NCBI RefSeq assembly: GCF_030811595.1
Contig: NZ_JAUSRB010000002.1
Location: forward strand, 5,146,001-5,210,000
Direction: 5' to 3'
DNA length: 64,000 nt
Source: Streptosporangium brasiliense
Lineage (GTDB): Bacteria > Actinomycetota > Actinomycetes > Streptosporangiales > Streptosporangiaceae
Below the pieces are notes generated by a model. That model did no database searches. It was not told the DNA's origin and saw only the letters and a list, made by a program, of their open reading frames with translations. Below are positions 4,095 through 16,617 of this stretch, piece after piece (within the stretch, counting starts at the first letter, position 1; every line of letters begins with the position of its first letter). The position numbers and the translations under genes are program-made.

Positions 4095-5510
4095 TCAGAG
4101 CGTTTCGGGGCGAAGGGCCCAGGGCCGGACGCGTTCGACGGCGGCGCCGACCCGGAAGACGGTCGCGTCGTCGTAGCTGCGGCCGACGATCTGCACCCCG
4201 GTCGGGACTCCGTTGGACGCCCGACCGGACGGGACGTTGAGAACCGGACAGCGGCTGGCGACATTGAAGACGGTCGTCAGCGAGTACTCCATGTAGTGGC
4301 CGAGCTCGACGCCGTTCACGACCAGCTTGGCATCGACGTAGTCCTCGCCCGCGCGCAGGGCGGGTGCCCCGGCGGTCGGGCAGATCAGCACGTCGTAGCG
4401 GTCCAGCAGCGCGCCGATGACCGCGTAGATCGTGGCCTCCAGCTCCAGGCCGGCCAGGAAACCGTCCCGCTCGGCAGCCGCCCGGGACTCCGCGGCGAAG
4501 GTGAGAGCGTAGCGGGTCAGCCTGTCACCGTGCTCGGCCGCGGCGTTGGCCACCATGGGGCCGAAGATGGTGCCGAAGTGGATGAAGGCGGCGCGCATGA
4601 CGTCGGCGCGGCACAGGCCGACCTCCACCTCCTCGACGATCGCCCCGGCGGCGGCCAGGGCGTCGGCGACGGCCCGGGTGTTGGCTGCGACATCGGGCTC
4701 GATCTCCCAGTCGCCCAGGTTGGGGGCGTAGGCGACGCGGAGGCCGACGACGTCTCCGAGCCGGTCGGGGATGCGGACCGCCGGGCGGAGAGAGACCACG
4801 TCGCCGGGGTGCGGGCCGACGATGACGTTCTGCAGCAGTGCGCAGTCGGCGACGGTGCGGGCCATCGGCCCGTCATGGCAGTAGTGGTCCAGGTTGAACG
4901 GGGGCATCGCCGGCACCCGGCCGTAGGGCGGTTTGTAGCCGACCGTTCCGGTGGCCGCGGCGGGCAGGCGGATGGAGCCGCCGATGTCGGAGCCGGTGGC
5001 GAGCGTGGCCGTACCGGAGGCGAGCGCCGCGCCCGAGCCGCCCGAGGAGCCGCCGGGGGAGTAGTCCAGGTTCCACGGGTTGCGGGTGAGCCCCCAGAGC
5101 CGGGAGTGGGTGAAGGCCGCGCAGCAGAACTCGGGCGTCGTGGTGCGGGCGTGGATGATCCCGCCGGCGGCCAGCACCCGTTCGAGGACCGGGTGGGTCT
5201 CCTCGGCCACCTGGTCGGGGTAGGCGAGCGAGCCGTCCGTGGCGAGCCGCCCGGCGATCGGCTGCTCGTCCTTCGCGGCCACCGGGAGCCCTTCCAGCGG
5301 CCGTGGTGAGCCGCCGTCGCGGTAGGCGCGCTCGGCCTCTGCCGCCTGGGTGAGGGCATCCTCGAAAGTACGTTCGGTCAATGCGTTGACCTGCGCTTCG
5401 ACGGCTTCGGCCCGTTCGATGACGGCGGTCATCAGCTCGACGGGCGACAGTTCGCGGGACCGGAACAGCCGCAGGGCCTCGGTCGCGGGAAGGTAGGCGA
5501 GGTCGGTCAC
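4095..5510 (-). CDS. Amidase (amidase signature family)
   Basis: A 471-aa enzyme with the Ser-cisSer-Lys triad visible: Lys80 in GLPVAAKDE, Ser155 in SPGGSSGGSG and Ser179 in GSDIGGSIRLPA. The start is the GTG at 5510, which overlaps the stop of the upstream ATPase gene by 4 bp (GTGA), so translation is probably coupled. It is cytosolic with no signal peptide. It likely hydrolyses an amide brought in by the ABC importer encoded just upstream. The exact substrate is unknown. Confidence 0.88.
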   Translation of the reverse strand: MTDLAYLPATEALRLFRSRELSPVELMTAVIERAEAVEAQVNALTERTFEDALTQAAEAERAYRDGGSPRPLEGLPVAAKDEQPIAGRLATDGSLAYPDQVAEETHPVLERVLAAGGIIHARTTTPEFCCAAFTHSRLWGLTRNPWNLDYSPGGSSGGSGAALASGTATLATGSDIGGSIRLPAAATGTVGYKPPYGRVPAMPPFNLDHYCHDGPMARTVADCALLQNVIVGPHPGDVVSLRPAVRIPDRLGDVVGLRVAYAPNLGDWEIEPDVAANTRAVADALAAAGAIVEEVEVGLCRADVMRAAFIHFGTIFGPMVANAAAEHGDRLTRYALTFAAESRAAAERDGFLAGLELEATIYAVIGALLDRYDVLICPTAGAPALRAGEDYVDAKLVVNGVELGHYMEYSLTTVFNVASRCPVLNVPSGRASNGVPTGVQIVGRSYDDATVFRVGAAVERVRPWALRPETL

Positions 5511-14477: not shown

Positions 14478-16331
14478 TCAGGGCCCCGGCGGCCGGCCGG
14501 CCAGCTCCCGCCGGATGTCGTCGTCGTCCGGTGCCAGCTCCAGCGCACGGGTGAGGTCGGCCACCGCCGCCTCCTCCCGCCCCGCGGCGCGCAGCGCCAT
14601 CGCCCGGTTGAACAGCAGCGCGGGGTCCGCGCCGGGTTCCAGGGCGCGGGTGAAGTCGGCGACCGCGCCCTCCGGGTCGCCGGTCTCGAAGGCCAGCATC
14701 CCCCGGCTGGCCCAGGCGGCCGCGAGCGAGGGGGCACCCTCCAGCGCCCGGTCGAACGCGGCCCGGGCCTCCTTGTGGTGACCCTCGGCCATCTCGACCT
14801 GGCCCAGCGCGCACAGCAGATACGGGTTGGCCGGATCCAGCGCGAGCCCGGCCTCCGCGTCGGCCCTGGCCCTGCCGTGGTCGCCGAGCGCGGCCAGCAG
14901 CCCGGCCCGGTTGGCCAGCCCGTCCACGAACTCCGGATCCAGCTCCAGGGCGTGGTCCAGGTCGACGAGCGCCCCCTGGTGGTCGCCGGCGGAGAAGCGG
15001 ATCTCGGCCCGGTTGTAGTACGGCTCGGGGAAGGGCGGGCCGGCCCGCATCGCCGTCTCGTAGTCGGCGATCGCCGCCTCCCGCCGACCCAGCCGGTGCA
15101 GCAGGTTGCCCCGGTCGATGTAGTAGTCGGGGTAGCCGGGGTCGGCCGCTATCACCGCGTCCAGGTCCTCCAGGGCGTCCTCGGGGCGGCCCAGCATGAC
15201 GGCGAGCTGCGCCCGGTTGGCCAGCAGCACCATCCGGTGGATCGGGTGCTCGCCCGGCGGCAGGTCGCGCTCGGCCAGCTCCACCGCCTCCTGGACGAGC
15301 TCCAGCGCCCTGGCGGGGGCGCCCCGCCGTACCTCCACCAGCGCCCGGCCGTTGAGGTCGAAACCCAGTTTGAAAGCGCGCTCGCGCGGGTCGGGCAGCA
15401 GCGTGGAGATGGCGATCGCCTGGTTCACCCAGGCCAGCGCGGCGTCCAGATCGCGCCGGGCCGGGTCGTGGTGGCGGACCTTGAGCATCCCGGTGGAGTA
15501 GGCGGCGGCCGCGTGCGTGAGAGGGGAGACGCTTTCACGCCTGGCCAGGTCGAACAGCGCCTCGGCCTCGTCCTCGCGGTTCAGCGAGCCGAGCGCGGTC
15601 GCGGTGCTGTGCAGGAAGCGCCACCAGGTCTCCGGCTCGGCCGCCGGGTCGGTCAGCGCCAGCGCGCGCTGCCCCAGCTCCACCACCGCGTCGTGGTAGC
15701 CCGCGTCCAGGCACCACTCGACCGCGAACCGGAGGGCCTCGACCGCCCTGTGCGGATCGGTGCCGTGCTCGCGGTGGTAGGGGATCGCTCCGAGCCGGGC
15801 GCCGACCGTCCCCTCCCGCTCCAGCTCCTCGGCCCGCGCGTCGTGCTCCTCCGGAGCGAGGGGCTCGTCCGGTACGGCCTGCTCGCCGACCACGACGGTC
15901 AGCAGCCGCGGGGCGATCCGCCGCCGCAGCACCGCCAGCAGCTCGCGGTCGGTGGGGTCGGCCCGGTGGGCGTTCTCCACCACGAGGGTCCGCGGCCCGA
16001 CCTCCGCCAGGTGTTCACCGACGAGCTCGGTCAGCCCGTTGGACAGGCGGAGCGTGCGGCGGGGCGCGTGGACCAGGATCCGTTCCGCCCTGGGCAGCCG
16101 GTCGGCCACCGACCGGCGCCTGGCGGGGACCAGCCCGTGCAGGTCGGGAGCCATGGCGCGCAGTTCTATGTCGTAGCGGGCGACCAGATCCGGCCGGGCC
16201 GCCGAGGCCAGCGCCGAGGCGATCGCGCCCCCGGCGGTGTAGGGGCCCCGCAGGCGCCGGTCGGCGTCCACGGGAGGCAGGAGCAGAGGAGGGAGGGGCG
16301 GGTTTTCTGATGGGAGCGGTCCCCGGCTCAC
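14478..16331 (-). CDS. TPR-repeat protein with an N-terminal degenerate ATPase-like domain
   Basis: A 617-aa cytosolic protein. The start is GTG at 16331 with AAAGGAG upstream. The first ~170 residues (RRLRGPYTAGGAIASALASA, then RTLVVENAHRADPTDRELLAVLRRR) resemble the Walker B/sensor part of an AAA/STAND module, but I see no P-loop, so nucleotide binding is doubtful. The C-terminal half holds at least seven tetratricopeptide repeats, for example EDALEDLDAVIAADPGY and GALVDLDHALELDPEF, a protein- or peptide-binding superhelix. It lies 71 bp downstream of a 24-residue peptide gene on the same strand, likely one transcript. The role is unknown; it may bind or regulate the peptide. Confidence 0.8.
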   Translation of the reverse strand: MSRGPLPSENPPLPPLLLPPVDADRRLRGPYTAGGAIASALASAARPDLVARYDIELRAMAPDLHGLVPARRRSVADRLPRAERILVHAPRRTLRLSNGLTELVGEHLAEVGPRTLVVENAHRADPTDRELLAVLRRRIAPRLLTVVVGEQAVPDEPLAPEEHDARAEELEREGTVGARLGAIPYHREHGTDPHRAVEALRFAVEWCLDAGYHDAVVELGQRALALTDPAAEPETWWRFLHSTATALGSLNREDEAEALFDLARRESVSPLTHAAAAYSTGMLKVRHHDPARRDLDAALAWVNQAIAISTLLPDPRERAFKLGFDLNGRALVEVRRGAPARALELVQEAVELAERDLPPGEHPIHRMVLLANRAQLAVMLGRPEDALEDLDAVIAADPGYPDYYIDRGNLLHRLGRREAAIADYETAMRAGPPFPEPYYNRAEIRFSAGDHQGALVDLDHALELDPEFVDGLANRAGLLAALGDHGRARADAEAGLALDPANPYLLCALGQVEMAEGHHKEARAAFDRALEGAPSLAAAWASRGMLAFETGDPEGAVADFTRALEPGADPALLFNRAMALRAAGREEAAVADLTRALELAPDDDDIRRELAGRPPGP

Positions 16332-16402
16332 CAGTCTCCTTTATCTATGTCGTTCTGGAGGCCGGCGCCCATCGCTGAGCGCCGGTTCGGTGTTTTTCGG
16401 TC

Positions 16403-16477
16403 TCAGCCGACGTGCTTGGGGCTGGCGGCCCCGCGGAGCGTGACGGTGCCAGGCTTGTGAACAATGACGCGCTTCAT
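16403..16477 (-). CDS. Small peptide gene (24 aa) upstream of the TPR gene
   Basis: A 25-codon ORF starting MKRVIVHKPGTVTLRG and ending in KHVG before TGA. It has GAGAGG 7 nt before the ATG and a recognisable promoter 35-64 bp upstream, in unusually AT-rich DNA. It is followed after 71 bp by the TPR gene on the same strand. The peptide is basic, with no Cys and no hydrophobic signal. The layout (own promoter, tiny product, dedicated larger protein next door) suits a signalling peptide or peptide precursor. No modifying enzyme is visible nearby. A leader peptide is the alternative. Confidence 0.55.
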   Translation of the reverse strand: MKRVIVHKPGTVTLRGAASPKHVG

Positions 16478-16511
16478 TGCGATGCCTCTCTCGGAATAAC
16501 AACAAACGGCA

Positions 16512-16541
16512 AGTATTCGCATTAATCACCCATATTGACAA
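16512..16541 (-). promoter_or_regulatory. Sigma-70-like promoter for the small peptide/TPR unit
   Basis: On the minus strand TTGTCA (16536-16541) is followed after 18 nt by AATACT (16512-16517). Transcription would start near 16505 and give a leader of about 28 nt before the ATG at 16477. The surrounding 70 bp are markedly AT-rich compared with neighbours. Confidence 0.55.
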
Positions 16542-16617
16542 GATCTTCTTCTTACAGTGGCCTCATCCGGACAGGTCGCCGGGCGGTCCGGCGCCACCTG
16601 TCCCGCCCGCGGGCCGG

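Follow-up and report, generated by a model that had tools for sequence, protein, structure and literature searches.

What a peptide of only 24 residues does immediately in front of the gene for a large tetratricopeptide repeat (TPR) protein is the question raised by a short segment of the Streptosporangium brasiliense genome (assembly GCF_030811595.1, contig NZ_JAUSRB010000002.1, positions 5,146,001 to 5,210,000 of the forward strand; this whole stretch of 64,000 nucleotides is called the window, and its coordinates count from its first letter). A preliminary description, made from the letters alone, had proposed a small peptide gene with its own promoter and a dedicated TPR partner here, encoding either a signal or a ribosomally made peptide modified by enzymes encoded elsewhere. 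We found that the 24-residue peptide gene is real and strongly conserved, that it co-occurs with the TPR family, and that one residue of a related peptide is associated with the presence of a TPR gene beside it. Our preferred reading, which we hold at about an even chance, is that the adjacent TPR protein binds the peptide as a cytosolic ligand in unprocessed form, derived from a precursor like those of the ribosomally synthesized and post-translationally modified peptides (RiPPs). The peptide gene consists of the following features.

16403..16477, minus strand: peptide gene, 24 amino acids plus a TGA stop codon (MKRVIVHKPGTVTLRGAASPKHVG), with the ATG at 16477-16475.
16485..16490, minus strand: ribosome site GAGAGG of the peptide gene, from sequence reading, aligned among the loci of the genus.

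All 16 genomes of the genus, the window genome (G000) and 15 relatives, have the peptide, with at least one match each; the best match in each relative shows 79-96% identity, and in the window genome the query matches two places. Across these 16 genomes the gene is free of insertions and deletions, the variable columns at codon positions 1, 2 and 3 number 8, 4 and 18 of 23 each, and the pooled ratio of non-synonymous to synonymous changes (dN/dS), a check that the preliminary description had suggested, is 0.155 in the peptide frame, compared with 1.16 and 3.21 when the same strand is read in its two remaining frames. Read antisense, the DNA yields 1.13, 0.23 and 3.16, so that by dN/dS alone one antisense frame could still be coding; a plus-strand open reading frame (ORF) across the same DNA was rejected, as its frame end differs among the relatives. 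A chance ORF is rejected by the presence in all 16 genomes, the dN/dS and the lack of indels. We preferred the 24-residue form to a 39-residue form beginning at an upstream in-frame ATG (16522), because that ATG sits upstream of the conserved -10 hexamer of the promoter described below. Neither a TPR locus lacking the short ORF nor a frame-breaking substitution was seen among the 16 window-type loci of the genus, and the ORF and its ribosome site stand as first described. The peptide has five Lys or Arg residues and no Asp, Glu, Cys or Tyr, and its tail, S[PA]KH[VI]G, is kept in 16 of 16 genus genomes, making it a conserved tail rather than a variable core. No hydrophobic signal segment is visible in it by inspection (no hydrophobic run is longer than VIV), and the peptides are without an NCBIfam match.

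The partner gene lies on the same strand, its start 71 nt beyond the peptide stop codon, just where the preliminary description had placed it.

14478..16331, minus strand: TPR partner gene, 617 amino acids, GTG start at 16331 (Pfam scan, AlphaFold2 and PDB matches).
16336..16341, minus strand: ribosome site AAGGAG of the TPR gene, from sequence reading.

The Pfam scan finds seven TPR_2 stretches and no helix-turn-helix (HTH) domain in this protein. Its AlphaFold2 model has a mean predicted local distance difference test score (pLDDT) of 95.4 and forms a long TPR superhelix, and its PDB structure matches are TPR superhelices such as OGT. The P-loop (Walker A, [AG]....GK[ST]) is absent from the window protein and from 42 of 42 aligned rows. 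The earlier claim of a P-loop-less, ATPase-like N-terminus followed by at least seven TPRs thus holds for the missing P-loop and for the repeats; its ATPase likeness is weaker, because the AAA_16 match at the N-terminal part (E 0.0094, 16.9 bits) is below the 32.6-bit cut-off, and a degenerate ATPase-like domain is a possibility suggested by sequence.

This TPR family, detected at E <= 1e-30 in 14 of 296 genomes of the class, is represented by four loci in the window genome, each preceded by a short leader-like ORF. We distinguished five types of locus, of which the window genome has A, B, D and E. Type A is the window locus. In type B, with the peptide MKKIIVRKPGTATLSGAASVIHKG, the TPR start overlaps the peptide gene by 4 nt. 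The type C peptide has the tail SPRHLT or SPRHGT, and its locus adjoins smc/ftsY-like genes (names by eye). In type D the peptide MKKIKIRKVGPIRLTAAACSIYKVPN is followed by an M50-like membrane protease and then by the TPR gene. The type E peptide, MKKMPIRRKSALRLMSGARRLWIEWCW, precedes a distant TPR paralogue (L011 about 4096-4179, plus strand; L236-L242), and its end, LW[IF]EWCW, is kept in 8 of the 8 genomes examined. A leader-like ORF with a score of at least 31 lies upstream in all 24 compared TPR loci (23 distinct places, L010 being the same as L089), where the best other ORF scores 21, and apart from the peptide only the TPR protein is common to all types in the compared loci. A protease match occurs only in D loci and in none of the compared A, B and C loci. 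Since leader residues including K2, G10 and L14 are nevertheless conserved in types A, B and C, something other than the protease, with its putative RiPP recognition element (RRE), should still read the leader there.

A phylogeny built from 105 TPR proteins resolves A, B and C as one clade each, matching the three peptide tail types. Together with a single A2 row they make up one clade (100*, 20 rows) that is nested, under midpoint rooting, among protease-linked TPR proteins; the type D protein groups with proteins of Streptosporangium canum and S. minutum, and the branch leading to type E is long and uncertain. Because A, B, C and A2 form one such nested clade, most simply the protease would have been lost once in Streptosporangiaceae, along with the Cys/Tyr core described below, and the window pair has the look of a reduced relative of a wider actinomycete peptide-processing gene set.

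The pairing of peptide and TPR protein was followed through 48 genomes, comprising 37 of the taxonomic family (out of 60 in the peptide survey) and 11 others which had been chosen for having the TPR family and are excluded from the count. The TPR family is present in 25 of the 37 genomes, the peptide in the same 25, and the other 12 have neither. The match in G023 is weak (E 0.086) but directly precedes the TPR gene, and in the 12 TPR-less genomes the matches have E values of 0.038 or worse, save one in G033 (3.5e-4), which lies inside a 603-aa frame and was counted as noise. The dedicated partnership claimed at the outset is supported by this co-occurrence and by the residue-7 pattern described next, and the TPR protein probably binds the peptide.

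A finer view comes from type B places without a TPR gene, which number 11: ten genomes of the genus have one, as does G095, from a different genus. They were recognised by an XRE-type regulator gene and a GNAT gene upstream (11 of 11), and seven have a NUDIX gene within 400 nt. Among the 14 TPR-linked type B peptides, 11 are shown behind the same regulator and that of G018 is not, with G036 and G026 outside this comparison. In L009 (1818-3910, plus strand) an XRE/TPR-type regulator, named by eye, is followed by a GNAT acetyltransferase, an arrangement that precedes the type B peptide in several genera. The pooled dN/dS is 0.24 for the orphan peptides of the 10 genus genomes (0.18 without G003, G005 and G009) and 0.12 for 13 linked ones. 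Only one of the 24 positions, residue 7, separates the two sets: it is His in 11 of 11 orphan peptides, and Arg in 13 and Cys in one of the 14 linked ones (Fisher p 2e-7, a value that ignores kinship). Type A peptides have His here in 20 of 20 cases, and the 63 unique protease-linked peptides described below all have Arg. All 11 orphan genomes have the window-type TPR gene, which belongs to the clade that pairs with His7, and we infer that the orphan type B peptides may have been re-addressed to the window-type TPR protein.

Mapped on the XRE regulator tree (22 rows), the label of TPR presence or absence takes four changes, no fewer than three of them forced; the tree built from the adjacent 700 nt (21 rows) likewise takes four, of which two or more are forced. 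A losses-only reading of the regulator tree takes five to six losses. In both trees G095 (TPR gene missing, His7) groups with G190 (TPR gene present, Arg7). On the side of the TPR protein, the His7 clade has His at residue 213 without exception (23 of 23 rows) and type B has Leu (14 of 14), with Tyr in 83 of the 97 B and D rows listed; positions such as 213, 88 and 242 are candidate specificity residues, a lead rather than a result.

The wider gene set was characterised by scanning contigs from 84,980 species with a protease alignment, which gave 132 relatives, of which the best 80 were kept as loci (L090-L169); several of these are broken by contig ends, and gene-content counts are lower bounds. 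A TPR profile match lies on the same strand in 80 of 80 loci. In 75 loci a leader-like peptide with a score of at least 40 lies upstream of the protease. Among the remaining five, a peptide with a different start can be seen by eye in L120, L135 and L161, and none was seen in L113 and L151. Sense-strand scores have a median of 61, and five loci score no higher than 23; the antisense strand of 79 loci, used as a control, scores at most 27 (mean 9.2). The 75 loci hold 79 peptides, or 63 unique sequences, partly from close relatives, which show a conserved leader of the pattern MKKIxVRKxGxVRLT followed by a variable core with Cys and Tyr. K2, R7, K8, G10 and T15 are invariant in the 63 sequences; all have Cys after residue 15 and Tyr within residues 16-28, at position 22 in 57 of them. 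In L125, L130 and L152 two or three consecutive peptide copies lie upstream of the protease. The genera carrying the cassette include Streptomyces, Kitasatospora, Lentzea, Actinokineospora and Micromonospora.

HExxH is present in 36 of 36 aligned protease rows. The AlphaFold2 model of the Streptosporangium canum protease (mean pLDDT 91.8) has an N-terminal part of three strands and three helices, which resembles lasso-peptide B1 (RRE) proteins bound to leader peptides (Foldseek probability 1.00, target TM score 0.67-0.70, E 0.076-0.29, none at E <= 0.001); this domain may thus be RRE-like, judging by shape in the model, the E-value being not significant. The Pfam and NCBIfam scans gave no above-cut-off match for the proteins scanned, and no PDB sequence matched the protease profile. 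A flavin reductase (PF01613) occurs in 38 of the 80 loci, 34 of which have it in a frame on the same strand whose end lies beyond the TPR gene, and could possibly carry out redox chemistry on the conserved Tyr/Cys core; SARP-type regulators occur in 40 or 41 of the 80, depending on the query. Outside the 80 loci, L246 (NZ_CP109482.1, 274764-278188) is a divergent cassette of protease and TPR genes, flanked by transposase genes on a Streptomyces plasmid, and its peptide lacks Cys and Tyr; a further 23 plasmid records hold more distant proteases, and of nine listed, eight are annotated as 'hypothetical protein' and one is unannotated. Among the top-ranked matches in the open-access literature we found no description of the cassette, and the passages found in PMC10885120, PMC12710340, PMC7470986, PMC7794033, PMC12224297, PMC13118837 and PMC12026744 do not mention the arrangement, so the parent cassette is apparently undescribed so far.

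How the window pair might be expressed is indicated by two further elements.

16512..16541, minus strand: promoter, with -35 TTGTCA at 16541-16536, an 18-nt spacer and -10 AATACT at 16517-16512 (consensus scan and conservation).
16362..16385, minus strand: G+C-rich hairpin of 10 pairs with a 4-nt loop, between the peptide and TPR genes (folding and conservation).

TTGTCA-N18-AATACT is the one sigma-70-type match in 451 bases (mean in shuffles 0.0). The -35 hexamer is kept in 15 of 16 genus genomes (TTGCCA in G011), the -10 hexamer, which falls within the invariant TGCGAATACTTGC block, in 16 of 16, and the spacing is constant. With a G+C fraction of 0.44 at 16450-16549, the promoter in an AT-rich island seen by the preliminary description is well borne out. 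Its block GCGAATACTTG has three sites in the 10.5-Mb genome, the other two at G000:C1:1352337 and G000:C2:1871580; a search with this block gave no lead. The 71-nt spacer between the genes folds at -24.3 kcal/mol (z -4.1 against shuffles). Its hairpin was found in 16 of 20 type A loci by pattern, with G015, G029 and G296 added by eye, and 99.4% of the alignment cells are paired (16 distinct rows), while covariation is not above that of shuffles (211/500). It is possibly an mRNA stabiliser or a partial terminator.

We propose that transcription would start from the dedicated promoter and that the hairpin behind the peptide gene would probably result in more peptide than TPR protein. The N-terminal half, which resembles a leader and spans residues 2-14, would dock in the TPR protein and set its state, specificity lying at residue 7, and the TPR protein would be a peptide-controlled adaptor or regulator acting on some downstream target. 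In the ancestral cassette the same leader would have been read by both the RRE-M50 membrane protease and the TPR protein, the C-terminal Cys/Tyr core being the product; in the Streptosporangiaceae branch of the window the protease gene would have been lost and the core would have become a short conserved tail (SPKHVG, SVIHKG or SPRHLT). More tentatively, as something we think possible though somewhat doubtful, these pairs may represent a new class of intracellular peptide-receptor regulation, in which RiPP-like precursors were turned into stand-alone ligands of dedicated pseudo-ATPase/TPR proteins, a one-residue address (Arg7 or His7) names the target TPR protein and was rewritten several times upon receptor loss, and the parent cassette makes up a new and widespread class of actinomycete peptides.

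Several observations weigh against our proposal. In G030 the peptide and TPR genes lie on different contigs, neither adjoining the other (L235, G030:C13, and L223, G030:C7: a TPR gene with no nearby leader-like ORF, and the peptide of the genome on another contig beside other genes); the hairpin is missing in G008; and residue 7 of G023 is Cys. The residue-7 association counts related genomes, and two old haplotypes could give the same picture. Gene conversion from the type A locus could also explain His7, and the orphans (11 of 11) and the type A genes (20 of 20) share CAC as their His7 codon. Against both of these explanations we weigh the position of G095, which is nearest to G190, a genome with the TPR gene kept and Arg7, also in the adjacent DNA. 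Some label changes on the trees could represent gains instead of losses, and the presence of several TPR proteins in some genomes makes the target of the orphan peptide ambiguous there.

A different account is that the peptide or its tail is exported, perhaps cleaved, re-imported and then sensed by the TPR protein, as in the RRNPP systems (Rap/Phr, PlcR/PapR), which we consider unlikely. According to PMC10075063, RRNPP pairs are adjacent genes for a propeptide of 10-100 aa, secreted by SEC or PptAB, and a receptor of about 250-500 aa with TPRs. The window pair is alike in that a short peptide gene adjoins a TPR gene whose product presumably binds the peptide by its TPRs; the 24-residue peptide falls within the propeptide range, the partner has the repeats, and the genes are adjacent (71 nt apart here, with the 4-nt overlap in type B), but not in G030. 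The small basic peptide next to a TPR gene and the type-specific conserved tails would suit a secreted signal, and the membrane protease of the related cassettes could cut and export it. However, the RRNPP systems belong to Bacillota whereas the window pair is from an actinomycete, the peptide shows no secretion signal by inspection, and its conserved half is instead related to the leaders of protease-linked precursors. The partner, at 617 aa, exceeds the receptor length given in the same source, with an extra N-terminal domain and no HTH, and the residue-7 switch lies in the leader half rather than in the tail.

It appears quite improbable that the peptide is a RiPP precursor modified or cut in trans, for instance by the RRE-M50 protease encoded at G000:C1:1808002-1809210. 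This account would draw on the common ancestry with protease-linked precursors and on the window genome encoding such a protease. M50 leader proteases have been described in RiPP pathways, such as epipeptide EpeP and TglG/TmoG (PMC10885120), and the related cassettes resemble these pathways in having a conserved leader, a variable core with Cys and Tyr, a membrane protease of the HExxH type and an RRE-like domain; they differ in that the protease itself carries the RRE-like domain, as a fusion, and is followed by a TPR protein in 80 of 80. The window locus, in contrast, has no RRE and no protease, no modifying enzyme was found there, and the tail is conserved. In the genus, 7 of 16 genomes have a close cassette-type protease, two only a distant M50 relative and seven none (E <= 1e-15, at most 39 candidates scored per genome), while the peptide is in all 16. 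Because these seven keep the peptide and the TPR gene, the cassette-type protease is not needed for type A, and its action in trans on the window peptide is not general. The window peptide lacks Cys and Tyr, both found in 63 of 63 protease-linked peptides (the divergent plasmid cassette lacks both too), and has His7 in place of their Arg. The earlier suggestion of a RiPP with its enzymes elsewhere is thus not supported for this peptide, which also lacks acidic residues, although its ancestry fits the RiPP idea.

Translation of the peptide ORF might instead act in cis, attenuating the TPR gene together with the hairpin, for which the hairpin between the peptide stop codon and the TPR gene and the 4-nt overlap in type B could be cited. 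The orphan type B peptides, however, are under purifying selection with no TPR gene downstream, and the conservation is at the amino-acid level, which leaves such a leader ORF highly improbable. The idea that the peptide is toxic or antimicrobial and the TPR protein its antitoxin or immunity protein, to which a small basic peptide in a two-gene unit might point, is barely credible, given that the same neighbour genes are found at 3 of 4 compared type A loci of other genera, so that the locus does not look mobile, that the peptide is kept at 11 type B loci without an adjacent TPR gene, and that the TPR protein has no PADLOC match. A defence system was rejected likewise, with no PADLOC match among three proteins scanned, the TPR protein included.

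The FxSxx-COOH system is likewise an actinomycete peptide with a TPR-type partner; the window peptide lacks the FxSxx end. The Staphylococcus protein TmcE (TMcin escort protein) has been proposed (PMC13252029) as a helper that accompanies a precursor through maturation beside an S2P-type protease; this is an analogy only, and that system differs in its Staphylococcus host and transmembrane precursor. The window pair offers an actinomycete candidate for the sort of partnership between peptide and TPR protein that is otherwise known from Bacillota (going by passages of PMC10075063), the natural swap at residue 7 makes a binding code directly testable, and the apparently undescribed cassette in many actinomycete genera may make new peptide products.

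Among the neighbouring genes of the window, a FAD-binding monooxygenase-like gene (PF01494; 12428-13666, minus strand) lies downstream on the same strand, with no sign of membership in the pair. The agmatine-deiminase-like and amidohydrolase genes were rejected as partners, since they are found neither at the type A locus of G029 (L083) nor at the compared type B and C loci; they adjoin the type A loci of G296, G190 and G095 too.
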